64,000 bases of DNA, taken from positions 19,013,700-19,077,699 of the forward strand of contig OZ037768.1 in assembly GCA_964035545.1 (NCBI GenBank), in the 5' to 3' direction. Below the pieces are notes generated by a model that was not told the DNA's origin, did no database searches, and was given only the letters and a program-made list of their open reading frames with translations. The position numbers and the translations under genes are program-made. This document shows, piece after piece, positions 6,354-32,550 of this stretch. How positions within the stretch are numbered: the first letter of the stretch is position 1; each line of letters begins with the position of its first letter. The DNA is from Bugula neritina (taxonomy: Eukaryota; Bryozoa; Gymnolaemata; Cheilostomatida; Bugulidae).

Positions 6354-9106
6354 CTATAAGGAAGAGTTATCCTCTCTCTTGGAGCCATTAAAGCCAGGAA
6401 ACAGGTAAAGTTTTCTCATGTGAGTGAGAGTATCCCAAGCCACAACTAGCTGGCCACTGTCCAAGTCTCTGTTTACACACAGCTTTCTGACTTTAGTCTG
6501 TACCTAAACACAATTATATGTAACTGTATATTCCAGGTATCTAAATTCTAGATGGATAAACACAGAAATTTAGAAACAAAACTACTATTTGAGTTTGTAC
6601 TAGCATTTCTTATCTTCTGTCATTTAGATTATGCGTAGTATGTATGATTGTAACTATAGAGTAGTGCTTTCACTGAGGACCTAAACATAGTCTGTAATGT
6701 GCAAAGCTAAAAGTGTTGGAATGTTTTGAGCAAAATCTACACTATTGTTGGCTTGGGAAAGTTCCAATAGAAATTATAATGCTCCGAAAAAGATTTGAAA
6801 TTGAACTGTAAAATTTTAGCTGTATAACCTAGCATATAATTCTTAAACTTACTTGTTTAAATATAGTGAGGGGATCGTGGTGACAGGCATGCTTATACAG
6901 TGAAGACACGAGAGCTCTAATCATTAGAGATCCGTATACAGGATGTCTCTTTGATATGAATGCTGTAACAGTCAACATATGAATGCTATATAATAGTCAA
7001 CATATGAATGCTATATAATAGTAAACATATGAATGCAATATAATAGTCAACATATGAATGCTATATAATAGTAACTATATGAATGCAATATAACAGTCAA
7101 CATATGAATGCTATATAATAGTCAACATGTGAATGTTATATAATAGTCAACGTATGAATGCTGTAACAGTCAACACTTGAAGGTTAAAACATATATGGAA
7201 GCTTTCTCATTACAATCAAACAATTTAGAATAAGTGTTAATCAAAACTAAACTGGCCATTAGCTTTTCGTCTTTTATTTGCGTTAAAGTTATACTTCACT
7301 ACTACATTAAGACAACACTCATTATTCGTTAGTGTGATCAGAATTAGACCTTAGCACTGTCATAGCTATAACAGCCATAAAATCTAGCTTAGTGTAGTGA
7401 AAAAAAGTTAAATTGGCAGCTATCTCTCTAGCAGTTACCATAACATTCTTTTATGGCATATCATTAGCTGTATATTAAATATTGTGTTGAAAAATTAGTT
7501 CGCCATTTGTCTTGTTAGCTCAAGTCCTTCTGCTATATTCAATATTTTAATAGCCGTAACTGTAAATTTTAATATATCCAACAGTTCATCAGTACATATT
7601 TTGTCATTTTTCCTGGCGTAGCTCTTATGCATACCTTTCTCTACGTAGTTTGTAAAGTCGCACAGTTTTGCTTTACATCTGTAGCAACTACAGCAGGTAA
7701 AGTTATTTATTTTTTCAACATGCATAGCCTGTGTTTCAACATTTAAAGCCACTGAATAATTATTCTTATTAAGCAGATACACTTATGTTACAAAGATTAG
7801 CTGCAAACAGTATTAATTGTTTAATGCTACGGTCACTGAGCTATAGATAGTCATCTCCAGGTGATCTAAGCCAAGGATATGTGCAAAAATATATCATAAA
7901 ATTATTTTCATTGACTAAGAAACAAATAAAGTAAGAGTGTATGCAAAACTGCAAGAGAGGAAGGCCACAACAAGCTATACTCACACTCTATGCTAGATTT
8001 CACTACTATTAAATCGTCATAGTTCAGTCTATTCATAGACTTAGCATCTTCAACCCCTGGCACTCTAGCGGGTTGTGATGACACTACTACAGCGTCTTCA
8101 TTCTGAGCTTGTCCAAGGTCAGATGCTGGGTCTATACCTTTATCACCAACATCTACCCTGGCTGTCATACGAAGTTGCATTTCAAAATGGTTACATTTTA
8201 CTAGATTGGAGAGAATGCATTTGTTGCAACTTTTAGTACAGTGGATAGTCGATTTAAACTGCTCTGCACAAAAAACCATCTTATACAAAACTGATTATTT
8301 ATCTCACACTTGCAAAACTATCTTACGTTAGCTTTGCTGTTTGATATATATAAGACAACATGTTCAATAAATTATCAATCAAAGATCGTCTTCATTTAAA
8401 ATTAATTAATATTTTAGCTCAATTAATCATTTTAAAATTCTTAGCAAAACACTTTCATCTAGAAAACTTCTTACCACCACTACAAGCTTCTAGTATGACT
8501 ATTTTTGGTTTGCCGCACATTCCAGGAAAGTTCAAGAATGTCAACAGGTCATACACGTCTGTGAGACTGAGCATCTGCAGGTCTGTACCATAAAGGTAGT
8601 TATTCATGCTTCCATGAGTCATGATGACTAATACATGACACCCCAGGTCTTCGTGCTCTTTCAGCTGTACTTCATCTTTGATGGTGGATAGAATAGCCTA
8701 GAAAATTATGTGGTGGATTACTATAAAATAAACTATAAAGTAGTTTCCCTTAGAGAGACACTTTGATTTTAGAGAGAGCAACATTCCAGCAGTGCCAAAT
8801 TTCGTATTTGTTAGTTTTCGTTTAGTCCAACTTAAAAAAGAATTTGCTATTTAACCCAAGTATTTGTTGACACTAAACTGTACATCTATCTATCAACTAT
8901 GAAGTGCGCCAATGGCATTACTGCATCATACATACTTCTGCCTTCAAGTCTGTGTGTGTTACAACCTCAAATTTTAGGCCTCGCAACACAGCAGACATAT
9001 TCTCAACATCCACATCTGAACCTTTCCTACACAAATCTGGTCTCTTATCAAAGTTCTTGTTGTTTATTATCAAAGCTCTTCCTCTTTTACGTGTCATACT
9101 GAACAC
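6354..9106 (-). other. Caspase domain exons (p20 and p10) of the Roco-caspase gene
   Basis: Five phase-matched exons (9106-8936, 8697-8475, 8263-7985, 6962-6853, 6503-6354) build a full caspase. p20 has VFSMTRKRGRALIINNKNF, the P1-Asp pocket Arg/Gly in CRKGSDVD, catalytic His in MTHGSMNN and catalytic Cys in ILEACSG, where most caspases read QACRG. A linker of about 90 residues holds several Asp. p10 has YDDLIVVKSSIE, then FISKRHPVYGSLMIRAL where most read SWR...GSWFIQ, then the C-terminal helix/strand ending RKLYLFPG. The changes at the S3-S4 pocket positions predict altered substrate preference. The dyad is intact, so I call it an active-type caspase, not a decoy. Confidence 0.88.
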
Positions 9107-12100
9107 CTGGATCATCAGATGTAGACAAAATGGTAGTTAAATATTTTGAAGAAACCTTTTTCCATTAGCAAAAATAAACATAATAGAAAACTTGTAAAGC
9201 ATTTGAGTCATTTGTTCATTTATTTTCTCATCACTAGCCACGTATCAGTAGCAACCAAACAAGAACCAAATTATGGACTTACCAAAAACATAACTCAAAT
9301 TACCAACAAGATTGTTATTAAAAAAATCAAGGACCACAAATGAATTTGTGAAACAATTAACACTTGCGTTGTACCAATTGTGCAAGAATGACACACAGTA
9401 GAATATGACATTTCTTTCAAACTAACATGGACAATGGAAACTTACTGCTGTTTAAAGTCTAACCCAAACACTTGTTAAGGAGATAATTGCTAGTTTGTAT
9501 ATGAATATAGTATATTATATTTAATGCCCTGCTACACCATGTAGGGAATACTAAAATGAAATTACCAACAAGCAAACTAATACCTTGTCAGTATTGGAGA
9601 AAAGCTTCCTTATTTTAGGACTTGTAGTTTTTTCCAGTTTGAGCCTGATCAGCTTTAGATGTTCTCCTTTCTCTCCACCAGGGTACAGATATTCATCGTC
9701 ATCAGAGAGGTCACTCAAGCTGTCATCTGCATTAACCTCATCAGCCGCTGCTGAAAAACACATTTTAAAACATTAGTCAAACCTCTGAGCATACAATACA
9801 TATTATAAAGGTCATCCTTGAATCCAAAAAAGCTACCGGCACTTACTTTTTGTTTGATCTAAAGTGATAGCTTAGAATAAAACAAAAACAAAAGAAATTA
9901 CAACAAATGCACAATGTGTCAATGCAAAGTTATGTTACAGTTACTCTTTTAAAGAAAAAGCATCAGAAAGTATATGATCATACTTGAAGTAGTGAGCATC
10001 AGCTGTTCCTTCCTCGCTGTCATTCCAGCAACAGATTTCTCTAAATTGTCCGCCTCACTCTCTGATAACACGTCACCTATTAAAATACAATTTAGATAAC
10101 ATGACTTCACCGGACGCATAAACACAGCTTTAAAAAAGTACTTATGCAACGAAATAGTATCTGCATTATTACATTGCCAATTTCAACAGTAAAATTATGA
10201 AATACTAAATTGCACGTACAAGGATAAAGAAGGGCACTAGGAATCTCATCATCGTCACATAGAGTTGTCGAGGATCCCTTGTAAAACTTGACTGGTGGTG
10301 GAGAATGTTTCAACGAGCGAAGGCACCACGGAGGGTTTACTATCTTGCGAGGATGGGGCTTGCCTAGCATCAAGCAATGAGCACAGTGAATTGAGGTGAT
10401 TGGGCGACTTGCAGTCCAAGTTTCTAAAACATGTCTGATGATATTGTTGGTTGCCGAGATGAGCCTTTTCCACATCTGGGAGATGATGGCTGTATCGGAA
10501 GATACAAAAATCAACACTTTTCTTGACTTGTAGTCATGCACTAATTGTGTATAGATTCCATCCTGGTATACATTGGCTCCATTTCTTTTCACTTTAATAG
10601 CAGCTATGTCATCAGGAAACAGTTCTAGCAGGCCAACAGTCATCTGAAGGTAGACATACTGTGGCAATGCTAGACTACTAAACATAATGACAGTCTGTAA
10701 AAGCAGTCTCTTTGGTGGAAGATAAGAAATATTAAAATAATCCGTAGCAAACTGTGGCAAAATGTACAGCAATTGATTAGCTTGATTACGTAATGGGCCA
10801 TGCAGCAACCGAAAAGTTTGAAGCAAGCAAGAAGCAATTTCCACGTTTTGGGCACCCGTGAATGAGGTTTCTTTCTCAATCAAATACACAAGCAAACTTC
10901 GTGGCATAACTCCTGTGCTTGTGTAGTGTTTCACAATATCTTCAAATTCTTGTTTATCAAGGAACGTGTCATAATCAAACCGACAGGGCACGAAGTCATC
11001 ACACCGATTCCGCCAAATACTAGAATCATGATGGTACAATATGGTTAGCAGCTTGGTCACTTCAGAAATCTTATGAAATATGCAAGGTCTAAGAACCTCT
11101 ATATCTTTGTACCACAGAATCTTGCCACAATCATGCATGTATGTGAGGATTATGTCCAGCTGACTTGGTTTAATTTGAAGGTTTTGCATCCGCAACAGAG
11201 CCAGGACAGACCAAAATGACTTGCAAGCAGTAGGTAGAGATAAAATCGTTTCATTAACTTCTTCCCAAACCATTGGCAGAGGTTTAAAAAAATGCTGACT
11301 TCTTCGAAGGAGAGACTTCTTAATTAGATCGAACACTTCGTATTCGTCATCTTTTCCTACTTCATAAATGTCAGCTTTAAGGAAGACCTCATCAGCTGAT
11401 GTTATGAAATGTTGAATTTGACAAAATTGACCGCCAATGTTTTTCTCTTCTTTGACAATCTCAGCACAAATCTGATTGGTGAGCTCTAAAAAACTTGACC
11501 GTAGCTGTTGGAACTTGACACTTTGAAACTTATCTTTATGAGTAAAAATAAGTTTAGGTGCGCCAAGAGTTGGGTTGGCGAGATAAAGATGAGACATGTA
11601 GTCAAACGCCAACCTTCTTACAGCATCTCTACTTGTTGATTTTTTAGCAAGCTCATCAAACTGGGCCATATTGACTACAATCACCGGTATGCAATTCTGT
11701 TTCAGTGTCAACTGATATGTTATGTGATACACTTCCTGGCCTCCCATATCAATGACTCGCAGTACGGTTCCCTCCACCACGACCTCTTCAACATTAAATA
11801 CTTTTGTCGTCTCATCTACGGCAGCTGCTGGACTTCGGTTGGTCAAAACTCTTTTTCTGCCAGCGTTTTGCAGAGTTTTGATTAAACTCGTCTTTCCAGC
11901 CATTGTGTTACCCAGTACAGCTATTGTAGCAAACGGAAGATTCTTACCAGAACCTTTAGCTAAGTCGATGTAATACTGGATAACAGCAGCTACCCCTCTT
12001 TGGCACACTTCCGAAGGAGGGGATGTAATAGCATCACAGCAATGCAAATTCAGTGTCTGAAGTTGAGTTAGCTGCAATATATCAGGATCTAGCGATTTTA

Positions 12101-15100
12101 GGGATTTGTTATAAGATAAATCTAATGACTGCAGACTACTCAATGTGTATAGAAAAGATGGTAGCCTGACGAGGTCGTTCCCATATATCTCTAAACTCTG
12201 CAGTTCCTGTAAGCTCCGCATACTGTCAAACAAAAACACTTAGTTATATCAGCTACCAAGTACCTTTAAAATGTGATGAGTTCAAACAAAAGTACCCATG
12301 TACGCCCTATGTATTGCGGTAACTATAAGCATCATCTGTGGGGCGCTTAGCAATAACTACTCGTAGGAAACCAAGAATTTGTAAGTTACAGGACTTTGTT
12401 TAAAAGTTTATTGCACGATTTTTATAACACATCCGGAAAGCAATAAAACGTTTTAGTACCAACCACAGCAGTAAAAAATTTAGGCTATATAGTTTCATAT
12501 GTTAATTTAATCAGATACTATGAAGTTACTCCACTAAACACGAACTCATAAAGATATGTCCATCTCATCCATAGATAGCCAAAACAAGTGTTTTGAAGTA
12601 TGAAAACTTTGAATTAGTATACTGTCATATTCTGATACTTAAGCGTTGCAAAGTTTCTGATTTTTTTCTTCTGACATATAAGAAGATAACTCTAAACTAC
12701 ATAATAGAGCAGCTTATGGGAAAATAAATTTTTATCAGCAATGCACAAAGTATACACATAATGCACACAAGGAAGTATTAACTGTAATGCATATGACGTA
12801 ATAGTTGCATACCTCTTTGGTAAAGCACCAAGACTACAGTTATTGATGTACAGCTTCTCCAATGATAGTAAAGATGTGAACATATCATCTAGTTGATTAG
12901 CGTTAAGCTGGTTATTTCCTGAGATATTTAACACTTGGAGATCTTGCAACAGAAGGACACTGAAAGCAGTAAATATTGTGATCATACTCTAAAATACTCA
13001 TGATAAGTCTATTTCCCGGCACACGGTATTATTACAATTGAGTATCACCGAAAGTCATTAAATATTCTAATTTCATAGTTTGATTTACTAGTATTACTAT
13101 CAGATTGTTTAATTGTGTGTATACCTTCTTGGCAGATTGCGGAGTCCGCAGTAACTAATGTTCAACTCCTTCAAGAAGTGCAAAGATGTGAACATATCAT
13201 CAGGTAGAATGTTATTCAGGTTGATTCCTTCCATATTTAGCACTTGAAGATTTTTTAGTCCAGATATGCTATAGAATAATAAGAAAGCTCTAAACAAATG
13301 GACACGAAAGGCTTCATTCTATAAGTCTAACCAACAATTATGTTATTAACAGAGGAGACAACAACCATCAGAGTGGGGAATCAAACTAGAATCTAGATTG
13401 TGGCAACAAATGATCAAACTACAACAAATATGTATTAGATTAAAAGCCTTGCATATCTCTTTGGTGAAAAATTAATATCATTCTACTAAACTGTGACCAT
13501 AGAATTGTGAAAGTCAAGATTTAATGCAGTTTCAGAAAATTTTGAGAAACCCAAATATAACTGTTTTAGTTGTGACAATAAATCTGTAAAACTAGAAATT
13601 TTATAAAAGCAGATAAATTTCCCCATAAAAAACCACAGTAGTATGTAGAATTATATTCTAATATCAAGTTTGGCAGACTTTATATTTTGATATAATTTAA
13701 CAAATTGCAAAAAAAGATTTTTTTTTTTCCAAAGTTCGGTATGTTCAAGGAATTTAAAGCAAATCATTCATGTGGAGCAGATACTAGTTTAATAGATTTT
13801 ATGCTCTGGCATATTAAATACAGTATTTATATTATTACAACATACAATGTAAGCTATAATTATATGAAAATACGCTGCTCAGCTGGCATGCAGGAAAATG
13901 TTTTTAACTGTGGTTCTTCCATTTGCTTTATGGTGAAATGAATAAAAGACGGCTATAACTGTTGAGATAACAATGATATATTTTACAACCTAGAGATAAA
14001 AACCTGTCTTGTTTTATCATCAACTTATCGCTACCCACAATGCATTGTATCAATGCTTTTCCTGTACTTTGTCCATCATGGCTTATACACATATAATAAA
14101 CAAATAAACGTTAATCAAATGACAACAGCCTACCTCAACAATAAATTCTGATAAAATATATTTCAGACTGTCAATCTGATTTTCTATAGATTCTGGAAAT
14201 AAAAAATAGAAAAAGCTTGCCTGCTCACCTACATAGCAGTAGGCTATGCATTGTCTTGGAAACTCATTTCATAAGTTGAAATAACTTATACATACCTATT
14301 GGGTAGAGCACTAAGTCCGCAGTAACTAATATTCAAAGCTCTCAATGACTGCAAAGATGTGAATACAGCATCTAGTAGCTTAACAGAGAGTCTATTTCCG
14401 GACAGGTTCAGTACTTGAAGGTTTCTTAGCTTAGATATGCTAAAATATAATAACTGAAGTAGACAATAGCTTGAAATAAAAAGTGATTGGGTCAAAAGGT
14501 CAGATGCTTAGAGAGGTCAGGAGTTCAGAGAATTACTAGCATAAAAAACTTGAAAATAATACGTGGAACTTTGCTAAAGTATAACAAAATAATTTCATAT
14601 TCCTTTTTTACTATACACTGATATCTAAGCATCAGGATTTAAACGTAATATTTTAAAGTACCAATTATTGTCATTTCTGCCATTTTCCTTATTCTAATAG
14701 ATTTTGTTTCTAAGTTTAAATATTAATCTGCTTATTGGCAGTTAATTATTTTTCATTCTCTAACCACAAAATTTTAAATAAATATTTCCAAATATACTAC
14801 AACCCAAGTAAGTTTTAAAGTAAAACTATCACGAACTGAGTATGTTTATCAAAATAATTTCATAGTCTATAATTCAATAATTGGAGAAGCTAAAACCCTT
14901 TGCACAAACAACATTCATACTACATGTGGTTAAAATCACAAAAAAATGCATCCATACTTGTGCAGTGAAATATAAACCTCAACACAATTCTTACTGACTA
15001 GACACTCATTGAAACTTACAGTTTTGGGTTGTTTCTAAATAAACTCTGATTTATAAATTATGCTAAAAGACTATAACTATAGTACCTGTACAAGTCCAGA

Positions 15101-15333
15101 TCTCCCCACATAAACACTAGCCATAGGTTCTTGAGATTAGGGAACAGAGTGTGAATGTTAGGAGGGATGTTCTGCCACAGTATAACATGTGTAACTGTGT
15201 GATGTTTACTTCTATTTCTGATCTCTTCTATAGTATAGTCTCTTGTAGGCATAACATTGTTTGTCCAGTTTTGGTCATAGGCATGTATATTGGAAGTGTT
15301 GAACCATATTCTATATCCTGTCCGGATATACAT
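6354..15333 (-). CDS. LRR-Roc-COR-caspase fusion protein (Roco family with C-terminal caspase domain)
   Basis: I join 13 coding exons on the minus strand, all with GT-AG borders and matching phases: 15333-15086, 14439-14296, 13268-13125, 12959-12813, 12222-10220, 10076-9984, 9870-9847, 9750-9584, 9106-8936, 8697-8475, 8263-7985, 6962-6853, 6503-6354, about 1300 codons. The order is leucine-rich repeats, Roc GTPase (P-loop GNTMAGKTS, DMGGQE, THKD), COR, an acidic linker, then a caspase with p20 (ALIINN, RKGSDVD, MTHGS, EACSG) and p10 (SSIE/ISKRHP, GSLMIRAL, KLYLFPG). Roco GTPases act as intracellular switches and caspases are death or inflammatory proteases, so the fusion suggests a GTP-gated protease (inference). 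The start is the first ATG of its exon; an upstream coding exon is possible. Both catalytic residues are present. Exon joins are my reading, without transcript support. Confidence 0.85.
6954..7177 (-). repeat. 25-bp minisatellite made from a caspase-exon acceptor site
   Basis: About nine copies of a 25-bp unit, with 'atgaatg' recurring at 6956, 6979, 7004, 7029, 7054, 7079, 7104, 7129 and 7154. On the minus strand each unit resembles the exon's own start, 'AG|CATTCATAT'. The copy at 6956 is the real exon edge. The outermost copy at 7154 carries the same 'ctgtaacagtcaac' flank as the real acceptor. Confidence 0.9.
9847..9870 (-). other. 24-nt microexon in the COR-caspase linker
   Basis: Between exons 10076-9984 and 9750-9584, a 24-base segment is bounded by TTCTAAG and a perfect donor GTAAGT. 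It fits the phase on both sides (phase 1), adding TITLDQTK. Because 24 is a multiple of three, it can be skipped without a frameshift, so linker-length isoforms are possible. Confidence 0.65.
10220..12222 (-). other. Large Roc-COR exon of the Roco-caspase gene
   Basis: This single 2003-nt exon encodes the last LRRs (LQSLEIYGNDLVRLP; LQTLNLHCCDAI), the Roc domain and the whole COR region. Roc has Walker A GNTMAGKTS at about 11895-11920, the switch II motif DMGGQEVYH at about 11720-11750 and the G4-like THKD at about 11545. The COR part ends with a Cys/His cluster (HCAHCL) and a Pro-rich stretch. The GTPase motifs are complete, so nucleotide binding is likely. The long intronless body is common in Roco genes of the MFHAS1/LRR-Roc-COR type. 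Confidence 0.88.
12813..14439 (-). other. Three symmetric LRR exons of the Roco-caspase gene
   Basis: Exons 14439-14296 (144 nt), 13268-13125 (144 nt) and 12959-12813 (147 nt) each begin and end in phase 2. Each encodes the same module of two leucine-rich repeats: a LQVLN repeat, then 'D..FTSL..L..LNIS.C.L..LP.R'. Each module can be added or removed without breaking the frame, which points to tandem exon duplication. The neighbouring exons (15366-15086 and 12222-10220) add a capping segment with 'LFPNLKNLWL' and at least two more repeats. Confidence 0.85.
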
Positions 15334-18916: not shown

Positions 18917-18930
18917 AGTGTATATCAAAG

Positions 18931-19797
18931 ATGGAGACTGAAAATGCTAGAATGCAACCACCCCCAGTAGAAGGTGAGCGTAGAAATGCTGTTAATCCTG
19001 TGAATCGTGAAGGAGAAGAAGCTTATAGACATTGCTTGAAAGCTCCCACCTTTACTGGGTCGGAAGATGTCGAACAATTTATACAAGAATTTAGAGAGGT
19101 AATGGAAGTTGCTCAATGGCCGCATAGAGTGGCCCTTATCAAATTGCGGAGGGCAGTGACGGAGCAAGCCAAGCCGTACGGAGTGGGAACGGACGTAGAC
19201 GGCATACTGGCTGCGCTGCGGGCCCGTTTTGGCACCTCCGTCATAGACGCTAGGACCAAGCTGGAGAGATTGTGCCGCACCCCGCGGACCTCGCTGCAAG
19301 AACATGCCGCGACGGTGAAGAAGCTGGCACAGATTGCATATAGCGATCTGCCAGCACAACACCAAGAGCGTTACACCTATGACGCCTTTGTCCAGTCCCT
19401 AAACGACCTGGGCCTAGACCATCACCTAAGAGCTAAAGGGATAACCAGAATAGAGGATGCCCTGAAGGCTGGAGAAGCTTACCTGTTGGCTACCCAAATG
19501 CATCGAGCACAGCGGAACCCACCAGTAGTTGGAGTCAGCGCTGCTCGGGCTACGACAGGCTCCGAAGCCCTCCCGCTGGAAGCCGAAGTGGACCGTATGG
19601 TAGAGATGCTGGGACAATTGGTAACCATTCTGGCCGGTGCTGGCCCCGGTCAGGCCTTGCGGATGCCCCCAACACCTGTGGGGCAAGGCTGGAGTAGCGC
19701 TGATCAGGACCAGGGACAGAAAGGACGACCCCAACACCAGGGGGCGTTAAACTGTCACGGCCCGCGGACACTCTCCCTCCCCGCGAGCCGCAACTAA
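18931..19797 (+). CDS. gag: Gypsy-1 Gag
   Basis: A 288-codon frame from the first ATG after the primer site, 15 bases downstream of it. It encodes a capsid-like Gag (LKAPTFTGSEDVEQFIQEFR, VALIKLRRAV, ALRARFG, LQEHAATVKKLAQIAY), the helical pattern of gypsy capsids. No CCHC zinc knuckle appears before the stop at 19795-19797. Instead, the -1 frame that overlaps its last part is extremely Arg/Pro-rich and probably takes over nucleic-acid binding. Expression of pol needs a -1 shift, for which GTTAAAC at 19746-19752 is correctly phased. Confidence 0.93.
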   Translation: METENARMQPPPVEGERRNAVNPVNREGEEAYRHCLKAPTFTGSEDVEQFIQEFREVMEVAQWPHRVALIKLRRAVTEQAKPYGVGTDVDGILAALRARFGTSVIDARTKLERLCRTPRTSLQEHAATVKKLAQIAYSDLPAQHQERYTYDAFVQSLNDLGLDHHLRAKGITRIEDALKAGEAYLLATQMHRAQRNPPVVGVSAARATTGSEALPLEAEVDRMVEMLGQLVTILAGAGPGQALRMPPTPVGQGWSSADQDQGQKGRPQHQGALNCHGPRTLSLPASRN

Positions 19798-20105
19798 AGG
19801 AGTATGGTGGAACACGCCGTCGTCTGTCCGTACGGACACGGCGGAACATTCTACCCGAGTGGCAGGTACCACGCAGGACTAGTAGGCCCGCACAACGGCC
19901 CAGTACCTTTTCCCTGCCACTCGCTAACCGGTTTCACCGGTTACCTCGGGAGGAGGAGCCCGCCACTGAAATGGAGCCAGAAGGCCCAGTGGAGAGGCCC
20001 AAACCCCGCCGGCACCAACCTCGCCGCCGGAAGCCCCGTAAACCACGGGTGAAACCCCCGCCGTCCTGTCAAACCAGGACAGCACATGCGGGGGGGGGGG
20101 GGTGA
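19704..20105 (+). CDS. Gypsy-1 middle frame: Arg/Pro-rich basic linker between Gag and protease
   Basis: This frame is open from 19704 (after a TGA) to a TGA at 20103-20105 and would be entered by a -1 shift from gag. After the slip it encodes a basic, proline-rich chain (RRRLSVRTRRNI; RPKPRRHQPRRRKPRKPRVK), which looks like a nucleocapsid replacement, since no CCHC motif is present anywhere in gag. At the 13-G run (20090-20102) this frame ends, while the pol frame is one base back. A second -1 slip, or one extra G in the run, would fuse it to the protease. It could also be one continuous Gag-Pol frame broken by a homopolymer error. Confidence 0.6.
   Translation, partial: SGPGTERTTPTPGGVKLSRPADTLPPREPQLKEYGGTRRRLSVRTRRNILPEWQVPRRTSRPAQRPSTFSLPLANRFHRLPREEEPATEMEPEGPVERPKPRRHQPRRRKPRKPRVKPPPSCQTRTAHAGGGG
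19746..19752 (+). promoter_or_regulatory. Gypsy-1 candidate -1 ribosomal frameshift heptamer GTTAAAC
   Basis: In gag frame the codons read GCG TTA AAC TGT, so G-TTA-AAC is in the slippery register. A -1 slip yields GTT AAA CTG TCA and enters the open frame at 19704-20105. The heptamer lies inside the 94-base overlap of the two frames. GTTAAAC is not the strictest XXXYYYZ, but it is a known functional variant. A downstream GC-rich stretch could form structure. Confidence 0.6.
20090..20102 (+). other. 13-base G run at the Gypsy-1 linker/pol frame break
   Basis: Thirteen consecutive G at the exact point where the linker frame must shift by -1 to read VKVQPHGESYFL and the protease. Fourteen G would make the frames continuous. 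This may be a sequencing or assembly length error, a true indel, or a slippery site. Confidence 0.8.
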
Positions 20106-23100
20106 AAGTACAACCACATGGAGAGAGCTATTTCCTACCTGGAAAGGTGGCCGGCAACGCCGTCACTTTCCTGCTCGACTCCGGTTGTACTACCAACCTT
20201 CTCAGCCGTAGAGTCTTTGAGGCACTGCCCCGCCGGGACAGGGATAGAGTACGACCGTATACTGGAGAACATGGCACCTTGGCAGACGGGTCATGTATCC
20301 CCTTTTATGGTATTATCGAGCTCCCTGGGCGTGTCCGAGATCAGGCTGTACAGGAGACCTTTATCATAGGTCAACTGGAGGAAGATGCTATCCTCGGCAT
20401 GCCCTTCTTGAAGCAACACCAGTGCCGAATAGATTTTAGTAAGTCGGTGGTGCTGATGGGCGGGCGAGAACTCGCCTGTGTGGATAAGTTTGGGCGTCCT
20501 CTGGTGGGCGGTGTTCAGGTAGTTCGGAACTGCACCGTACCCGGACGCTCCAGAGCTACTATCCACTGCCGAGTGAACAGCAACCGGATAGCCAGGCTCG
20601 GGGTCGTTGAAAGCGCGCACGAAAAGATCCAACTCGCCAGTAGTTTAAACCGACTAACTGAGCGAGGGGAGGTCTTAGTGCAGTGCGTCAACCCCTTTAC
20701 CGAGCCCATTGAGCTCCCAGCTGGGTCAATGCTGGGTCGGTTCCATTCCGTCCAGGAAGAGGACGTGGGCCCGTCGCTGGGTGACGCGACGGAGGCACCC
20801 CCTCGACACCCTATTCAGGGACGAGGGGCAGTCCCGACACATCTCCGGGAGTTATACGAAACAGCCAGTGGCGGCTGCGCGAGTAACAGAGAACGCCAAG
20901 CTATGGCCAAGTTACTACGCGACTACGGTGATGTGTTCAGCAGCGGGGAGAATGACGTGGGACTGACTGGAATTGTCAGACACGAAATACCGCTGACTGC
21001 AGGGACAGTCCCTGTCCGGCAGCCCACGCGCAGGCTGGGGCCGGAGAAAGAGAAGGAGGTTAGCCGACAAGTACGGGATCTTCTGGACCGGGGACTGATA
21101 GAGCCCGCCCATAGTGCGTGGAGCTCGCCAGTCGTACTGGTCCGGAAGAAAGACGGCAGTTGGCGGTTCTGTGTGGACTACCGCAAACTCAATAGCGTAA
21201 CCATACAGGACGCCTACCCTCTACCTCGTATTGACGAGTCATTGGACGCCCTAGCCGGCAGCAAGTACTTCAGTACGTTAGACTTGCTAAGCGGCTATTG
21301 GCAGGTTCCTCTGAGTCCCGACGCCCAGGAGAAAGCGGCGTTTATCACACGGGACGATTTGTGGAAGTGGAAGGTGCTGCCCTTCGGGTTAACCTCCGCC
21401 CCAGCCACCTTCCAGAGGCTGATGGAACAAGTCCTTAGCGGACTCCATTGGAAGACACTGCTGGTCTACCTCGATGATGTCATCGTAATCTCTCCAGACT
21501 TCGAGACACATGTCAGTCGTCTGCAGGAGGTTTTCGAGAGACTCCGAGGTGCCGGTCTTAAGCTCAAACCTTCCAAGTGCGCTCTATTGCAGCCGGAGGT
21601 CAAGTACCTGGGGCACGTTGTCGGTCGAAACGGCGTGGCAACGGATCCCGAAAAGGTACGGGCAGTAGAAGACTGGGTCACCCCCCAAGACTTGACCGGA
21701 CTCCGGGCTTTCTTGGGGCTGGTAGGGTATTACAGGCAATACATACCAGACTTTGCGGGCATAGCCCAGCCGTTAAACCGGCTTACCGCAAAGGGAGTGA
21801 CGTGGCAGTGGACTCCAGTCGAACAAGAAGCGTTCGACCGCCTCAAGGGCTGCCTCCTAACGGCGCCCATCTTGGCCTACCCAGACCCCACTCTGGAGTA
21901 CATCCTAGACACAGACGCCAGTGACCAGAATGTTGGCGCTGTGCTGTCGCAAGTGCAGGAAGGCCGAGAAGTAGTAGTAGCCTACTACAGCAAGTCTCTC
22001 TCCCCCGCTGAACGAAATTACTGCACTACCCGCAAGGAGCTGCTGGCAGTAATCAAGTCAGTGAAGCACTTCAGACCATACCTATATGGCAGGAAGTTCC
22101 GGCTGCGTACGGATCATGCCTCGCTGATCTGGTTGTGCAGGAGAGCAGAGCCCTCCAGTCAGGTCGCCCGGTGGCTCGAAATCCTAGCTGAATTCTCGTA
22201 CCGGATCGAACACCGACCGGGCAAGAGACACAGCAATGCAGATGGGTTGAGTCGCCGACCTGACGGAGGTTGCAAACAGTGTCTCAACATCGAGAGGAGG
22301 GATGGAGGTCCCCCACGATGCGAGTTGGAGACGCTGGCTCATCACGGAGCACCGTTTGACTGGGATCAAGGTCAACTCAGGCAAAGAGTTGATGAGTCCC
22401 CGGAGGATGTACAAAACCTCCGCGCCAACCCTGTACTGGCCGGTAATGTTCGAGAGCTGAAGAAGCTCCAAGAAGAGCTGCCGGGAGTCGTGGCAGACAT
22501 CTACCGGGCCAAAAGGGAAGGGCGACGACCCAGCGAGGAACGCATACGACAGGGATGCGCCGAGTTCCGGCTATACTGTCAGCGTTGGGACTCGCTGCGG
22601 ATCGGGCAGGATGGGTTGCTAACCATCTCTCTAGCTGCCAGCGGCAGACACCCGGAAAGGAAGAGGGTAGTCTGCCCCACAGCCATCCGCCGTGAGTTGA
22701 TTTGGGATACTCACAAGCAGGCCCACGCAGGGGTCAAGCGAGTGATATCCAAATTACGACTCCGGTGGTATTGGCCGCAGATGGAGCGTGACGTCCGGCT
22801 CAGAGTCAAACAGTGTGAGATCTGCCAGGCCAGTAAGCATAGCCGCCCCCCTGGTGAAGCAGGACGGCGGAGGCTATATGCTGGTAGGCCCTGGCAAGTG
22901 GTCGCTGTAGACCTGGTCGGACCCATGCCCCTGACCCCCAGAGGCAATAATTGGATCCTAGTACTAACCGACCACTTTACTAGGTGGGCGGATGCTCTGG
23001 CTATCCCAGATGCATCAGCCCCAACAGTGGCCAGGGCACTAGACCAACATGTATTCTGTTATTTTGGGCTTCCCGAACAGATACACTCTGATCAAGGCGC

Positions 23101-24376
23101 TCAATTCCAGTCTCAACTGATGAGCGACCTTTGCCACCTCTGGGGAGTAAATCAGAGCAGGACCACCCCCTACCACCCTCAAGGTAACGGGGTGGTGGAG
23201 CGCAACAACCGGATGCTAGGTGATGCGCTCCGGAGTCTCCTCCTTGGACGAGGTCAAGAGGAATGGGATACGATTTTGCCGCAAGTCATGCGTGCATACC
23301 GTAGCACCCCACACACCAGTACTGGTGAGACCCCAAACCTCTTGATGCTCGGGAGAGAGACTCGTGTCCCTGACCATCTCACCTATCACGTTCCAGAGCA
23401 GGATAACTCAGTCCATGAGTATGCCAGTGAACTAGTGGAACGGATGAAGGCCGCACACGAGATACTGCGTCAACAACAGTGGAAGGTGCGGCACGAAGAT
23501 TCCGATGAACCACCCCTCTATCAAAGAGGAGATAAGGTGTGGATGGTCAATTACCGTAGGCGCCGCGGACAGGCTGATAAGCTGAAGCCTAAGTTCGTAG
23601 GCCCCTACGTGGTCGTCGAGGCTATGCCCAATCATACGTACAAGATTGAGCGCTCAGGACAGGTGTCTATCCAGAATGAGTCTCGCTTGAAACCGTATTG
23701 GGCTAGCCCTGACGGAGTGGGAGAAGCCCCCCCGTTGTTAGAGCCCAGGAGGCAGACAACGACGCGCGGGCGACGGCGGCATGGACCTGAATACGAAGTG
23801 GTCATACCGCGGGAGGAAAACTTGGTGAGAGAGGAGCGGCAGCTTTTGTCAACAGAAGCGTGTCCGCCACCGCCAAGTCTTATTCCATCACTTCCAGAAA
23901 CCGAGCCGGTTCCGGAAGTGCAAACCCCCACGGAGGGAGGGGCTCCATCCGGAGAACAAGAAGAGGTGACCACTAACGGTGAAGTAGAGACGCCATTAGA
24001 GGCCCCTACTAACGAACCGGCAAGCGTGTCACCCCCCCTAGAAAGGGGACAGCGTACGAGGAAGCCCCCACCGTATTTGAAAGACTTCATATGTGACTGC
24101 ATTAGAAGCGGCGCACATGAAAGTCTAGGGGAAAACCGTACGATAAAATGTTGGAGTTGTGAACCCCACGCAAATATCAACTTTTGCGAGGGCGGAATAG
24201 TGGGAGGAATTAATGCGCGTAAAGCAAATAGTTCCGACCTCGTGCCTCAGAAACGATGCTCAGCCTTTTCTTATGCTGACATCGCCAAAGGCAGACGTAT
24301 CTCGCAACCAGCTCCAACCTTACCAAGAACGTTGAGTATGGACATTAATACCGAGTTCCCAGGTAAGCCAGTATAA
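20102..24376 (+). CDS. pol: Gypsy-1 Pol: protease, reverse transcriptase, RNase H, integrase
   Basis: A 1424-codon frame, entered by frameshifting and not by its own ATG. Domains in order are aspartic protease (LLDSGCTTN, about residue 26); reverse transcriptase (RFCVDYRKLNSV about 355; LPFGLTSAP; VYLDDVIVIS about 455); RNase H (YILDTDAS about 600, RTDHASL); integrase with HHCC zinc finger (HKQAHAG...CEICQ, about 870-910); DDE core (AVDLVGP, HSDQGAQF, VVERNN, about 934, 995 and 1030); and a GPY/F module (PKFVGPYVVVEA about 1166). A tail of about 220 residues follows, acidic and Pro-rich, ending in an unusual SYADIAKGRR segment. No chromodomain is visible. All catalytic residues are present and there are no internal stops, so it is probably functional. 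Confidence 0.97.
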   Translation: MKVQPHGESYFLPGKVAGNAVTFLLDSGCTTNLLSRRVFEALPRRDRDRVRPYTGEHGTLADGSCIPFYGIIELPGRVRDQAVQETFIIGQLEEDAILGMPFLKQHQCRIDFSKSVVLMGGRELACVDKFGRPLVGGVQVVRNCTVPGRSRATIHCRVNSNRIARLGVVESAHEKIQLASSLNRLTERGEVLVQCVNPFTEPIELPAGSMLGRFHSVQEEDVGPSLGDATEAPPRHPIQGRGAVPTHLRELYETASGGCASNRERQAMAKLLRDYGDVFSSGENDVGLTGIVRHEIPLTAGTVPVRQPTRRLGPEKEKEVSRQVRDLLDRGLIEPAHSAWSSPVVLVRKKDGSWRFCVDYRKLNSVTIQDAYPLPRIDESLDALAGSKYFSTLDLLSGYWQVPLSPDAQEKAAFITRDDLWKWKVLPFGLTSAPATFQRLMEQVLSGLHWKTLLVYLDDVIVISPDFETHVSRLQEVFERLRGAGLKLKPSKCALLQPEVKYLGHVVGRNGVATDPEKVRAVEDWVTPQDLTGLRAFLGLVGYYRQYIPDFAGIAQPLNRLTAKGVTWQWTPVEQEAFDRLKGCLLTAPILAYPDPTLEYILDTDASDQNVGAVLSQVQEGREVVVAYYSKSLSPAERNYCTTRKELLAVIKSVKHFRPYLYGRKFRLRTDHASLIWLCRRAEPSSQVARWLEILAEFSYRIEHRPGKRHSNADGLSRRPDGGCKQCLNIERRDGGPPRCELETLAHHGAPFDWDQGQLRQRVDESPEDVQNLRANPVLAGNVRELKKLQEELPGVVADIYRAKREGRRPSEERIRQGCAEFRLYCQRWDSLRIGQDGLLTISLAASGRHPERKRVVCPTAIRRELIWDTHKQAHAGVKRVISKLRLRWYWPQMERDVRLRVKQCEICQASKHSRPPGEAGRRRLYAGRPWQVVAVDLVGPMPLTPRGNNWILVLTDHFTRWADALAIPDASAPTVARALDQHVFCYFGLPEQIHSDQGAQFQSQLMSDLCHLWGVNQSRTTPYHPQGNGVVERNNRMLGDALRSLLLGRGQEEWDTILPQVMRAYRSTPHTSTGETPNLLMLGRETRVPDHLTYHVPEQDNSVHEYASELVERMKAAHEILRQQQWKVRHEDSDEPPLYQRGDKVWMVNYRRRRGQADKLKPKFVGPYVVVEAMPNHTYKIERSGQVSIQNESRLKPYWASPDGVGEAPPLLEPRRQTTTRGRRRHGPEYEVVIPREENLVREERQLLSTEACPPPPSLIPSLPETEPVPEVQTPTEGGAPSGEQEEVTTNGEVETPLEAPTNEPASVSPPLERGQRTRKPPPYLKDFICDCIRSGAHESLGENRTIKCWSCEPHANINFCEGGIVGGINARKANSSDLVPQKRCSAFSYADIAKGRRISQPAPTLPRTLSMDINTEFPGKPV

Positions 24377-24393
24377 GTCTTGTATTCCTATTC

Positions 24394-25467
24394 ATGGAAA
24401 CGGGCTCGATGCCAGTAGATTCTGAACTAATTCAGCAGATTGAATCAGAATTACTGGGAACCACGTTTCATGTGAATGACGATGAAGACACTGTAATGGC
24501 CGATGGTCTGTTAGACCTGGAGCTAGACACTGTTCTTGGTCAGTCCACACATGATTCATCAGTTCCTCGAGTGCATTCCAAAAGCAGTGACTCTCAGGCT
24601 AGCAACGGTCGACAGTCACTAGAATTAGGTTGTAAAGATCCACCGCGATCTAACACTAATTCTACTTTTGTAGACACACTCGCGCCCGTCTCTCCGGGCA
24701 TGCCTTCTCTAGAGATGGCGTGGGACTCAGAGCCGGCCCCAACAACTTCTACCACCAGGAAACTGCCACCCCAGTTGGAAGCAACCTCCAACTGGATTAC
24801 CCCTGCCACAGAGAGAGAGATCAGGACCCATCAAGGAGGTGAGGGTAATCGTGAATGCAACCTCTGCCAACAGCGATTCACGACCCACCGCAGACTAAAA
24901 GTACACTTGCCGCAACACTACATCACCACTTTCTGCCCTTGCGGAGAATATAGCTACAATCGTGATTACCTGTTGCGGCACCAACGTACTATGCAGTGTT
25001 ATCAAGGGCATGTCTATGAAGTAGACGAATCATCCTATCCTGCTTTTCTCAACGCCATCAAACCACTCATCACTGACTCAGCTCGGCTATCTCGCCTGGA
25101 GCAAGGCTTCCCTTCCCCGCGACCCATCATCTCTGGAGCCGCAGATAAACCTACACAGTCTGCTAACTCTCCACCTCACAGTCCTATACGCATGCCGCAT
25201 ACCTTTCCTCGTGTCGTACTACAGAGAGTAGACACAAATGCGTATACACTCCCTCCTCCTCTTCCATCCTCAGAGCGGAAACGACACAGGCAACCAACTT
25301 CCTCTCGTTCGTCCCCCTGGGCCCGTAACCTACGTGAGGTAGAAGCTAGGGCGCATGACTTGGAGCAAGAAGTGTACAGGCTGGCCCCACGAGTACAGGC
25401 AGCCTCCAGTGAACTCAAATATTTACAGGAGTCTATTAAGCGCATGAAACGTGCGGCCCGCAGTTAA
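24394..25467 (+). CDS. Gypsy-1 ORF3: C2H2 zinc-finger/coiled-coil protein of unknown role
   Basis: A 357-codon ATG-initiated frame that starts 17 bases after the pol stop and lies inside the element, where env would be in a retrovirus-like gypsy. It has no signal peptide or membrane segment, so it is not an envelope. Residues 1-150 are acidic and Ser/Pro-rich. Residues 153-175 form a C2H2 finger (ECNLCQQRF...HLPQH). Residues 181-206 form a second, odd finger (CPCGEYSYN...HQRTMQCYQGH) with only one residue between the first two Cys. Residues 311-355 look like a coiled coil ending in basic KRMKRAARS. A DNA/RNA-binding, targeting or silencing-escape role is conceivable but is inference. Confidence 0.9.
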   Translation: METGSMPVDSELIQQIESELLGTTFHVNDDEDTVMADGLLDLELDTVLGQSTHDSSVPRVHSKSSDSQASNGRQSLELGCKDPPRSNTNSTFVDTLAPVSPGMPSLEMAWDSEPAPTTSTTRKLPPQLEATSNWITPATEREIRTHQGGEGNRECNLCQQRFTTHRRLKVHLPQHYITTFCPCGEYSYNRDYLLRHQRTMQCYQGHVYEVDESSYPAFLNAIKPLITDSARLSRLEQGFPSPRPIISGAADKPTQSANSPPHSPIRMPHTFPRVVLQRVDTNAYTLPPPLPSSERKRHRQPTSSRSSPWARNLREVEARAHDLEQEVYRLAPRVQAASSELKYLQESIKRMKRAARS

Positions 25468-26275: not shown

Positions 26276-27269
26276 TGAAGTAAATTTGTGTCTGACACCA
26301 GGTGTCACTATTGACGGTAAGTAATCTCACTTAACAATGAGGGTCGGAATAGAATTCCCTTGTGCGGAAAACTAATTAAACTATCTAATACTGTTTGTTG
26401 CCAAATTATTTGCTAATGTGATTTTAATATTTTCCAGTGACTATTGATTTCTGGTGTTCGGTAACAGTGCTGAAGTGTGATAGGGACACGGCTATGGTTC
26501 GCCGATTTATATCACAGCAACTGTAGTCAGAGACAGTGACAGAAATCTGATTCCTGATGTTCGAATCGCAGAGACTCGACAGGAATTCCGCAACGCAAGA
26601 GAGTCACTACAGTGGAAAAATGATTTCTGGTGTTCGGTAACAGTGCTGGAGCGTGACAGGGACACGGCTATGGTTCGCCGATTTATATCACAGCAGCTGT
26701 AGTCAGAGACAGTGACAGAAATCAGATTCCTGGGATTTGAATCACCGAGATTCAACAGGAATTGCAGCGCAAGTAATCACCATTGACAAACCTATAGAAA
26801 CTAACCACCACTATTGCCAACTCAATAGCAACCTAATCAAAGAGCAGAGTATTTCGCAAAGAATAAAGTTTATTATATTATTTATAAGAGTCAATTATAA
26901 ACATTACAACAGGCAACAGTCGACTGACTGCTACTAAAAATTACAACTCTATTTATATCCATATTACGGACGTCTTGGAGCACAAAACGGACGTCTTGGG
27001 GTGCAACCAATTATTTACATACAAAAATTTTATAAAACTCAACAAATTTAATATAAAATTAGCATTACAACTTGTATCAACCAATCACAATATATCAAAA
27101 TTAGTTGACCTAGCTTTGAGTTAGTTAAATTATTGCCAGAATGATTTAACTTGCAGGTCCGATAAAAATCACCTTGACCTAGTTTCTATATTCACAATAT
27201 TGTTATTGAGGGCCGTCAACTTGACGCAACGTGTACTGCTCGATGGCTCTAATAATATTTTTTACTACA
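26276..27269 (-). repeat. Gypsy-2 3' LTR
   Basis: 994 bp, TGTAGTAAAAAA to TTTACTTCA on the minus strand. It contains an internal 176-bp tandem duplication and a TTATAAATAA / AATAAA cluster near 26866-26890 that could serve as TATA box or poly(A) signal. The last about 67 bases of pol run into it. Confidence 0.97.
26445..26775. repeat. 176-bp tandem duplication inside the Gypsy-2 LTR
   Basis: The word tgatttctggtgttcggtaa recurs at 26445 and 26621 with about 90 percent similar flanks ('acacggctatggttcgccga' in both), so the unit is 176 bp and almost two copies are present. The same arrangement occurs in the other LTR at 32738-33068. Duplicated LTR blocks of this kind are often enhancer-like; that role is inference. 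Confidence 0.88.
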
Positions 27270-30200
27270 CCATCCCCTCCGGAGATAGAATTCCGTCCCG
27301 GAATTGGACCCTTCTTAAGTCTTTTAATTGGGTTGGCAGCTTCTACTAATGCAGGAAATTCTTCATGGTAGTTACTGAACCAGTCAGCGTGTAGAATGGT
27401 TTGGGTCTCTGACTTCTTTGGCACAACTCTGTTAGACTTCGGCCAGGAGTGTACTCGATCTAGGTGGTAGTCTCCAAACCGAACAGGTTTGCGTCTTTGG
27501 CGGTTTGATCTAAAGCCAGGATCAGCTGAGTGGATTTCTTCACCATATGTTTCTAACTCCTCTATAGCTGCAGACTCGCCTTCTTGGGGATGGTCATCGT
27601 CTTTCCGGTTTACATCAACACTTTCCTCCTTGGTCAATTCCTTCATACTGGAGGTAGATGGTAATCCGTCGGTTTCTGGTTCTACATCAGTTCTATTATG
27701 TACGTCAACATCGGGTTCTGCATCTGGTAAGGCTCCGGGAGGTCTCACTACGGCTGGGTCTTCTGATAATTGGGGTGTGACAGGCAGGATCTCTACATCG
27801 TCTTCTTCCTCTGTAATGAAGCCATTGGTGACCGAGTCTTGAGATGGTATAGTGGGCAGTGGTGTTTCTGCGACAGTAGGTGGCCTTGTATCCGCTGGAA
27901 CAGGTGGGGTGGCTGCTAGTGCTCTATCCTTTTGTCTGGAGTCAGTTGATTCTACATATGCTTTGATACGCCCTTCATGTTGAACACTGTATTTGCCATC
28001 CTTTACCATACGATAAGTCTGGAACGGCAACACTTTAGTGATGGTGTAGGGCCCCACATATTTAGGACGGAGCTTAGCACCTCGTCCCTGTCCTTGGTAG
28101 TATGATTTTAACCAGACTTTATCGCCTTCCTTGTATGGACTGTCTTCCTCTTCAGGTTGAGGCATCTCCATCTGTTGTTGTCTCAACCGCTCATGGACTT
28201 GTTGTAGCCTCTCTTTGAGTTTATCCACAAACTCTTCCACTGGTAACTCCTGTGGGTCTTCTTGCTGGAACAAAAGATCTGCAGGCAATTTCACCTCCCT
28301 GCCTAGCATCAGAAAATTTGGGGTCTCGCCGGTGATTCGGTGTGGTGTAGCTCGAATTGTCCGCAGGATTTGTGGAACTAGCAAATCCCACTCCTTGTGA
28401 AGAGATTCGGCTAGAAGGGCACGCAGGGAATTTCCTAGGGTTCTGTTTAGCCGCTCGACCACGGAATTTCCTTGTGGGTGATACGGTGATGATCGTGTCT
28501 TATCACAGCCCCACAACAAACAGCACTCCTGAAAGATTTGGGATGTAAATTGCTTTCCTTGATCAGAGTGGATGCATTCTGGGACTCCAAAGTAGCTGAA
28601 GACCCGCTCATCAAGCACCCGGGCGACAGTTGTGGCTGTCCCATCTTTTATTGGGATAGCGTCATACCACCGGGTGAAATGGTCTGCTAGTACCAGTATC
28701 TGTGTGTTTCCTTGGTTTGTTTCAGGAAATGGTCCACAGAGGTCAATTGCAAGGATCTGCCAGGGGCGTCCGGCATGAAGATGATTCTGGGGGTTGGAGG
28801 ATCGATGAGGGACAGGCTTAGCTTGCTGACACTGTTGACAACCCTGAACTTGTCGTCTAATTTCGGCTGACATTCCAGGCCAATACCACTTTTCTTGTAC
28901 ACCAAGTAACGTTTTGTTGACTCCTAAATGTGCCTGTTTATGGATGGATTCTACTACTTCACTTCTCAATGCACGAGGTAAAACAGTCACCATGTGACCC
29001 TCCCGGCGGTGCCTCATTTTTATCATCAGGCGCCCTCCAAGAAGGCTGAGCTCTTCCCACCAGCGAAGTAGTGCTTTAGTCTCTCCGCCCACTCGGTCCA
29101 CGTTAGGCTTCACTCCTTTCTGAAATGCGCGATAAACTGGACCAATGACTGCATCTGTTTCTTGGGCTTGACGAATGGTGTCCATTTCAACATTCATCTG
29201 TGGCACAGCTTTAACTGCAACATGAGTAACCTCCGCAGCAACTTCCACTCTCTGGTCATTCACCGCGTTGGGTACTACACTCATGGGAACGTGGGTCATT
29301 GGGGGCTTCAACCATTCTGACCACTCTTGTGGCTCAGTCTTCTTTGGATGGAAAATATGGAATTGTGCAGCCTGTACAGTCGTTATTCCTTGCACTATGT
29401 CCGTCTGGGTAGCAGTGGAGTGGAATCTTGGTTCTTTGTTTGGTAAAGCAGTCTGGGAAAGGTTGATCTTCTTCTCAGGTGATGGAAACATTCGGTCACA
29501 CTGTTTACATTCTTTGCATATCTGCCGGCTCAGTCCATCAGCATTGTTATGTTTTCGCCCTTTCCTATGCTGTATCCTGAAGTTGTATTCAGATAGCGTT
29601 TCCAACCATCTTGCCAATTGTCCTGTCGGGGCAGGGTTTTGAAGCAGCCAAACAAGTGAAGCATGATCAGTCCTTACAAGGAACTGACGGCCATAGAGTT
29701 GAGGCCGAAAATGGCGGACCGCTTTAATTATTGCCAGTAACTCCTGTCTGGTGACACAATAGTTGCTCTCTTCGCTGGAATACATCTTAGAGTAGTAGCT
29801 TACCACCCTCTCCTCGCCACCATGGATTTGGGACAGGACAGCCCCGGTACCGACTTGACTAGCATCTGTATCAAGTATGAATTCTCTAGCATAATCAGGG
29901 TATGCAAGAATAGGGGCAGTAACTAGATGAGCCTTGAGTTTGTTGAAAGCCAATTCGCACTCCTTATCCCATTGAAATCTGGAATCTTTTGAACATAACT
30001 GGCTGAGGGAACGAGATACCTCGGAATACCTAGGGATAAACCGTCGATAGTACCCACATGTACCCAGGAATGCCCTGACATCTGTCTTATGCTGGGGTCG
30101 AGGCCACTCCTGTACTCTCTGTACCTTTGAATCATCTGTTGAAATACCATTCTGACTGACAACGTGGCCTAGATACTGGACTTGTTCGGCAAATAAGGTG

Positions 30201-31648: not shown

Positions 31649-31677
31649 AGGATTCAGTTCGACAGTGACTGGGTCAT

Positions 31678-32514
31678 TTAGTGTCGAACTAAATCGTTTC
31701 CCTGTCTAGATTGGGGACATCTCCTTGCATAGTGCCCTTTCTCTCCACAAGCATAGCAGGTAACTGGCGTTGGCGCAGTTCTAGGGGGTCGGCTTTGTAC
31801 CGAGGCAGTTGACAAGGTCAATTTCTCCAGCATGGCTCCTTGAGTTTCCACGAGTTTCTGCATCATCTTATTTTGCTGTGCCATGTATTGGTCCAGCCGA
31901 GCTTCTAACTCAACCATACTGTCGTTCTTCACTTGACGCACTGTGGTTGTGTTTGTTTGTAGTTGGGAAAACTGGTGGATGATGTCTATGGTGGCTTCCA
32001 CAGTCTCTGGTGTGCGATGATTTAGTTCCCAGCGTAATGTTTGATACTCATCCGGTAATGCATTTATTAGCTCTTTAATAGTGCGCTTCATTCTACCGTC
32101 CTCACCTAGTTCTGGGATGGCCATCTGAATTATTCTTTTTAGATAGTTGGCAAATTCGTGTATATTTTCTTTAGGGTTCCAGCTGACCTGCTTCAGTAGC
32201 TGACTGGCTCCTTGCTCTGTGAGTTGATACCTGGTTCGGAGTTGACCAGCACGATGTTTATAAGTGCCCTCTGGTAATCCGCGCTTTGCTGCACCAGTTA
32301 CAGCCATATCAAAACGTAGCTCAGTTTCTGCATCCTCCCACTTATTAAGTACTCGGACTTGTTCGAACCTACGTAAGAACTCGTCCACATCAGTAGTGCC
32401 ATCAAATGACGGGGGTGGTAGGCGAGTATGTTGCCGTTGATTAAGTATAGTAGCAGCCTCCTTTGCCATGTCTCGAATTCCTGCAGCGGCTTCACGAAGA
32501 GCTTCTTCTGCCAT
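31678..32514 (-). CDS. gag: Gypsy-2 Gag with CCHC zinc knuckle
   Basis: A 278-codon minus-strand frame starting at the ATG 36 bases after the primer site. The capsid-like region has LPPPSFDGTTDVDEFLRRFE, WEDAETELRFDMAVTGAAKR and FANYLKRIIQMAIPEL, followed by a Gln-rich coiled segment (RLDQYMAQQNKMMQKLVETQ). The C-terminus bears a classic nucleocapsid knuckle CYACGEKGHYARRC (C253, C256, H261, C266). Twelve codons later it stops. The canonical slippery heptamer GGGAAAC lies between the knuckle and the stop, so Gag-Pol would be made by -1 frameshifting. Confidence 0.95.
   Translation of the reverse strand: MAEEALREAAAGIRDMAKEAATILNQRQHTRLPPPSFDGTTDVDEFLRRFEQVRVLNKWEDAETELRFDMAVTGAAKRGLPEGTYKHRAGQLRTRYQLTEQGASQLLKQVSWNPKENIHEFANYLKRIIQMAIPELGEDGRMKRTIKELINALPDEYQTLRWELNHRTPETVEATIDIIHQFSQLQTNTTTVRQVKNDSMVELEARLDQYMAQQNKMMQKLVETQGAMLEKLTLSTASVQSRPPRTAPTPVTCYACGEKGHYARRCPQSRQGNDLVRH
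31696..31702 (-). promoter_or_regulatory. Gypsy-2 -1 frameshift heptamer GGGAAAC
   Basis: Gag codons read CAG GGA AAC GAT, so G-GGA-AAC fits the canonical X-XXY-YYZ rule. The -1 product continues AAA CGA TTT AGT without a stop into pol. It lies 18-24 bases before the gag stop. Confidence 0.75.
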
Positions 32515-32550
32515 CTTTATAGTGGGTTGTCTAGTATTGCTCTAGAAATA

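Follow-up and report, generated by a model that had tools for sequence, protein, structure and literature searches.

A putative LRR-Roc-COR-caspase gene of the bryozoan Bugula neritina and its genome-wide family

Introduction

The closest described counterparts of the gene presented here are the bacterial LRR-AP-GTPase-COR proteins, which carry at least 24 C-terminal domains, a caspase among them, in the passages of Kaur et al. 2021 (PMC8195603) drawn on here. Among animals, the Roco proteins of Trichoplax have CARD, death and other domains, with TIR named in a figure legend (PMC4104024), and Aplysia has Toll-like receptors and a MyD88-like protein that both carry ROC-COR (PMC9334734), both as given in parts of these papers. 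Here we describe a gene on the minus strand of a stretch of 64,000 nucleotides (the window) from chromosome 4 of Bugula neritina (GenBank assembly GCA_964035545.1, contig OZ037768.1, positions 19,013,700 to 19,077,699). It joins leucine-rich repeats (LRRs), a Roc GTPase and a COR domain to a caspase, very probably as one gene, and judged by its genome matches it is a member of a family of about 100 genes in this species.

Like the bacterial proteins, as far as the passages of Kaur et al. 2021 describe them, the Bugula genes have fast-evolving LRRs, Roc, COR and then an effector, with multiple paralogs per genome. That class is characterized by LRR-Roc-COR and a C-terminal effector in one chain, with paralogs, and the same features are found here, the single chain being deduced from the exon structure. 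The two differ in the effector: at least 24 different ones are given for bacteria in the same passages, whereas in Bugula a caspase follows 103 of 109 Roc exons (among the matches listed). The initial annotation of this DNA knew of no described Roc-COR-caspase fusion, a view which does not hold for bacteria (Kaur et al. 2021, PMC8195603, in the part consulted). An animal protein of this kind was not found in the passages of the openly licensed PubMed Central literature that were covered. The domain order is already known, and what appears to be new, within the same literature, is its occurrence in an animal and its large expansion. As to common descent with the bacterial proteins, scanning prokaryotic genomes with a profile did not confirm any relative, the method being weak at such distance.

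With the animal Roco proteins (LRRK1/2, DAPK1, MFHAS1 and those of Trichoplax and Aplysia) the gene shares Roc-COR and a signalling partner, often with LRRs; in them, however, either a kinase or an adaptor takes the place of the partner domain, and no protease occurs in the passages that describe them. In NLR inflammasomes and the apoptosome, a repeat sensor and a NACHT or NB-ARC ATPase have a caspase as their output, and the caspase is joined non-covalently through CARD, PYD or DD contacts. The sensor-switch-caspase logic is alike in the Bugula protein, but the switch is a GTPase and the caspase is covalently attached. The p20 match, the His/Cys dyad and the aligned arginines are shared with caspase-3/6/7, 3sir, CED-3 and caspase-8; unlike in canonical caspases, an LRR-Roc-COR-linker part of about 980 residues stands in place of the prodomain, and the intersubunit exon is long.

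Gene structure

The window gene has 12 exons (E1 to E12), all with GT-AG introns, and the frame is kept throughout to give 1303 codons. The model runs from position 15366 to the stop codon TAG at 6356-6354. ATG 15333 is codon 12 of the model, and the protein counted from there has 1292 residues. Among the 58 other matches to E1, the first aligned query residue was 13 or later in 50, 12 in three and below 12 in five. Because most of them begin at residue 12 or later, 15333 is a sensible start, in agreement with the initial annotation, which had begun the gene there; a coding exon may lie upstream of E1.

E1 (15086..15333) is the N-terminal coding exon, counted from ATG 15333, and its open frame runs to the acceptor before 15366. 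E2 (14296..14439) and E3 (13125..13268), of 144 nucleotides each, and E4 (12813..12959), of 147 nucleotides, hold one LRR apiece, and E5 (10220..12222) holds the last LRRs, the Roc GTPase and COR. The linker follows in E6 (9984..10076), which carries an LS...L motif, and in the acidic E7 (9584..9750; LSDLSDDDE...IRKLFSN). The caspase p20 begins in E8 (8936..9106; RGRALIINN) and continues in E9 (8475..8697) with the catalytic His (MTHGS) and Cys (EACSG). E10 (7985..8263) contains the intersubunit linker and the start of p10 (DDLIVVKSS), which extends through E11 (6853..6962; SKRHPVYGSLMIRALV) to its C-terminal end and the stop codon TAG in E12 (6354..6503). These phase-consistent exons bear out, at the level of exon structure, the single LRR-Roc-COR-caspase gene proposed initially, and all the motifs named then (the P-loop, DMGGQE, THKD, catalytic His and Cys, and p10) were recovered. 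A 25-bp minisatellite of 8.4 copies (6954-7162) occupies intron 10 at its end and reaches into the first bases of E11; the E11 acceptor is located in the last repeat unit.

Domains and motifs

Three Pfam families matched the window protein above their curated cut-offs: Peptidase_C14 (1.3e-37; residues 1001-1260, profile positions 1-212 of 233), LRR_4 (3.6e-17) and Roc (8.8e-7; 29.6 bits, cut-off 27). Among the 14 Pfam families listed for the protein (E up to 1), no match to NACHT or another STAND ATPase occurred. An alignment of E5 was made from the window copy and nine paralogs, which are 37-39% identical to it over this exon. Roc matches all ten members, COR-A nine (best 2.9e-11) and COR-B two; a COR domain directly after Roc is thus supported at the level of the family, not by the window copy alone. 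In a profile built from the ten exons, the Roc part matches the solved chains 6hlu and 3dpu (listed as 'Rab family protein'), which we take to be bacterial Roco proteins (Chlorobium Roco). The P-loop is present as GNTMAGKTS. After COR, a CxHC motif (C613, H615, C616) is invariant and is followed by a conserved NPxW in all ten aligned copies; the former is possibly a zinc site.

Aligned with solved caspases (6pdq, 3sir), the window caspase has both the catalytic His and the catalytic Cys in place. An Arg in p20 (crkGSDVD over TRNGTDKD) and one in p10 (SKRH over SWRN) line up as well, although the alignment of p10 to 3sir is weak when taken alone (3.9 bits); the two residues presumably form the Asp pocket of the caspase.

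Distribution in the genome

A Roc piece of 163 residues gave 110 genome matches, and after two lying about 1 kb apart were merged, 109 Roc exons on eight chromosomes remained. Their open frames have 460-784 codons, except for the merged fragment (156) and one of 2363, about three times the next longest, which contains the match at C1:33885730-33886218. A stop codon lies inside two of the 110 matches. The caspase matches used for comparison comprised 234 entries, namely the best 150 of 176 matches and 101 from a second search, with some exons entered twice. Among the matches listed, a caspase is found 0-10 kb downstream on the same strand for 103 of the 109 Roc exons (median 2.9 kb), upstream for two and antisense for none. 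The six without a downstream caspase are C1:32552628 (partial, a 34% match), C1:34326437, C1:34571896, C1:34940554, C6:2540653 and C6:2608682. According to the initial annotation, a linkage absent from relatives would speak against a single gene; the opposite is seen among these paralogs of the same genome. A chance pair of neighbouring genes was considered and rejected, as the linkage in order and strand repeats genome-wide.

A first pairing of the 58 large-frame Roc/COR exons left nine with no caspase inside 5 kb (among the matches listed), and such exons were considered as a sign of two genes. This was rejected, since the larger search leaves only the six named above; C7:12328267, without a caspase in the first pairing, has linker and caspase exons on inspection.

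The p10 piece had 84 matches, which lie within 13 kb downstream of 69 Roc exons, upstream of one and antisense to none; in 300 random placements the mean was 0.76. E1 had 59 matches, including that of the window itself, and lies within 8 kb upstream of 24 Roc exons (downstream of one) and within 30 kb upstream of 44 (downstream of 18, as expected when neighbouring copies enter the range). A genome search with COR-A yielded 23 matches, of which 21 have a same-strand caspase match a few kb downstream (the lists were compared by eye). Twenty of these 21 loci were examined, and all have the Roc-COR exon followed by caspase exons on the same strand. Two COR-A matches without a caspase, L009 and L010, resemble ordinary Roco genes (LRRK, for instance) in their peptide sequences.

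Twenty-one copies were checked for the motifs in place. All of them retain the P-loop, and 20 retain the remaining two GTPase motifs as well as the catalytic His and Cys motifs; the copy that lacks both sets is L042. An earlier count over whole loci, in which motifs could match elsewhere, had given the same 20 of 21. The p10 motif, sought with one pattern, was found at 16 of the 21 loci.

Caspase entries without an upstream Roc exon number 52 of the 234 (among the matches listed), so other caspase genes exist. They include a cluster of caspase exons on chromosome 9 (C9:9.32-9.41 Mb), which has no Roc exon within 10 kb upstream.

Junction of COR and caspase

The E7 linker peptide has 64 genome matches, 63 of them downstream of a Roc exon, and it precedes the first caspase match in each of the 63 Roc genes where it was detected. 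The search did not detect it in the other 46, but inspection by eye shows it in the more distant ones that were read. Splice sites were tabulated for 20 loci (the window and 19 paralogs, L042 being left out). A phase-1 donor ends E5 at 19 of them, the exception being L035; the E6 acceptor stands exactly 8 nucleotides before the LS of the motif at all 20, and the phase-0 donor after E7 and the phase-0 acceptor before E8 are likewise present at all 20. The strong observation here is the fixed position of the E6 acceptor. The E7 and E8 sites are weaker, having been sought in short windows in which GT or AG can occur by chance.

Selection on the coding sequence was estimated as the ratio of nonsynonymous to synonymous substitution rates (dN/dS); where a segment was located in part of a cluster only, the ratio was computed from those loci alone. 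In cluster C1, E7 has a dN/dS of 0.28 (8 loci); the values over 7 loci each are 0.24 in Roc and 0.34 in COR, whereas the neighbouring intron, translated in that frame at 8 loci, has 0.70 and contains 35 stops. By this measure the E7 linker of the C1 cluster is under purifying selection. Between the window copy and the paralog L052, E7 is 60% identical, with a proportion of nonsynonymous differences of 0.18 and saturated synonymous differences. Taken together, the exon data make it highly probable that the LRR-Roc-COR and caspase halves belong to one gene.

Evolution of the leucine-rich repeats

The LRRs mostly lie one per exon, and one paralog (a single locus was examined) has three closely similar LRR exons about 517 bp apart. 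Across seven loci of cluster C1, the LRR codons of E5 have a dN/dS of 0.78 (0.49-1.27), compared with 0.31 for COR, and across seven loci of cluster C7 they have 1.50 (0.67-6.10), compared with 0.29. For Roc, the C7 value is 0.63 with one locus that has a stop in Roc included, and 0.29 with 5 loci. The faster evolution of the LRRs fits diversifying selection in these alignments without proving it, and strong positive selection on them is not claimed because the intervals include 1.

Proposed function and alternative explanations

What the sequence itself shows is the order of the domains, GTP-binding and catalytic motifs that are intact, an exon structure that recurs from COR to caspase, and the expansion. 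The mechanism with the best support, which we infer, is a single chain that holds sensor, switch and protease. The whole chain would be an intracellular receptor in which Roc-COR unites caspase domains without an adaptor, leading to killing or signalling; we put the probability of this reading at about 0.6. The LRRs would keep the protein inactive and bind a ligand of microbial origin, from damage or from self. Through the GTP cycle of Roc and dimerization by COR, two caspase domains would then meet (induced proximity, with no CARD or death-domain adaptor), and the caspase would cut its own chain after Asp, both in the acidic linker of E7 and in the intersubunit linker of E10. Once released, the protease would kill the cell or cut a signalling substrate. 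Such a protein would work in the manner of an inflammasome or death receptor made of one protein, with a Roco switch instead of NACHT.

Several observations weigh against this reading. COR-A in the window copy reaches only 12.8 bits (E 0.12), under the curated cut-off, so that in the Pfam check of the joined protein foreseen by the initial annotation, Roc and Peptidase_C14 passed and COR did not. The structure predicted for E5 alone has a predicted local distance difference test score of 36. The E6-to-E7 junction, with several possible phase-1 acceptors, is the least certain one. At L036 and L038 the Roc-COR frame does not include the conserved end of E5, which is found in a short open frame of its own; for these two loci an additional intron or a shift has to be supposed. 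Seven of the 19 loci read have an in-frame Met within E7, at which a start is possible. The dN/dS values of the young cluster C7, 3.47 for E7 and 2.44 for E8, speak against purifying selection; little weight is given to them, as the silent differences behind them, added up over pairs, number about 8 and 11. To these is added that the LRR intervals reach 1 or beyond in both clusters.

The Met codons in E7, with those in frame upstream of the E7 motif in L052 and an in-frame ATG that E8 has directly ahead of the caspase core, would suit two adjacent genes, one for LRR-Roc-COR and one for the caspase, duplicated as a block or expressed as a polycistronic unit. Tandem duplication would likewise preserve order and strand, and caspase genes without Roc do exist (the 52 of 234 entries). 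Yet at 12 of the 19 loci, the window included, E7 has no in-frame Met; the splice sites around the linker recur (19 of 20 loci for the E5 donor, 20 of 20 for the E6, E7 and E8 sites); and the linker is conserved as coding sequence in cluster C1 and between the window and L052. Two genes are therefore very improbable. One locus with alternative products (a Roco-only protein, a caspase started at the ATG in E8, which adjoins the caspase core, and the full fusion) could also be imagined, with the small linker exons being skippable. We regard this as unlikely, as E6 and E7 are recognisably retained in the 20 tabulated loci and nothing positive favours it.

A genuine fusion might also serve another end, with the caspase as a scaffold or a house-keeping protease under Roc-COR control, in development or the degeneration of zooids, and not as an effector of immunity or allorecognition. 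Bryozoans degrade and regenerate their polypides, and the paralog L042 has lost its His and Cys motifs, both of which would suit such a role. High copy number, tandem LRR exons and fast LRR evolution are, however, typical of recognition families, and here there are about 100 copies, tandem LRR exons and LRRs that evolve faster; the catalytic dyad is intact in 20 of 21 copies. On balance a role of this kind seems doubtful.

If receptor and protease are made as one chain, sensing and killing would be one molecule apart, and the effect of the Roco GTP cycle on an effector could thus be read from protease activity; to our knowledge, how this cycle acts on the effector is an open question for LRRK2 and its relatives. 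We know of no bryozoan allorecognition molecule, and the family would, if the receptor reading is true, be a concrete candidate receptor family for bryozoan allorecognition. It would also be an animal case of an architecture otherwise found described, in the literature passages covered, only for bacteria.

Genome setting

Exon-wise searches of the genome in six frames gave one match for NACHT, four for CARD and three for gasdermin, compared with 109 Roc exons; these counts are lower bounds, as exons split by introns can escape. The three gasdermin-like matches lie on chromosome 2. A wider proposal, which we offer tentatively and would wager somewhat against, is that in Bugula neritina the Roco-caspase family has supplanted NLR inflammasomes as the chief set of intracellular death receptors, with a built-in protease and directed at pathogens or at self and non-self of the colony. 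It would be the animal counterpart of bacterial Roco conflict systems, and the gasdermin-like genes would be possible substrates.

The best Peptidase_C14 score of the genome belongs to another locus, L001 (C4:4999494-5003312), which is caspase-like with a single open frame of 345 residues. It has DASFG at the position expected for the catalytic Cys (by eye) and is perhaps an inactive caspase homolog.

Within the window, the Rfam search returned nothing at gathering score. The segment 26445-33056 looks like a long terminal repeat retrotransposon: direct repeats (26445-26763 and 32738-33056) stand around minus-strand gag-like (31681-32541) and pol-like (27206-31705) frames, which were named by eye. 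A second gag-pol-like set, also named by eye, is found on the plus strand at 18919-25464. The open frame at 39142-39552 is kinase-like (IHYDLKP), presumably Tousled-like, and contains a 24-bp tandem repeat.

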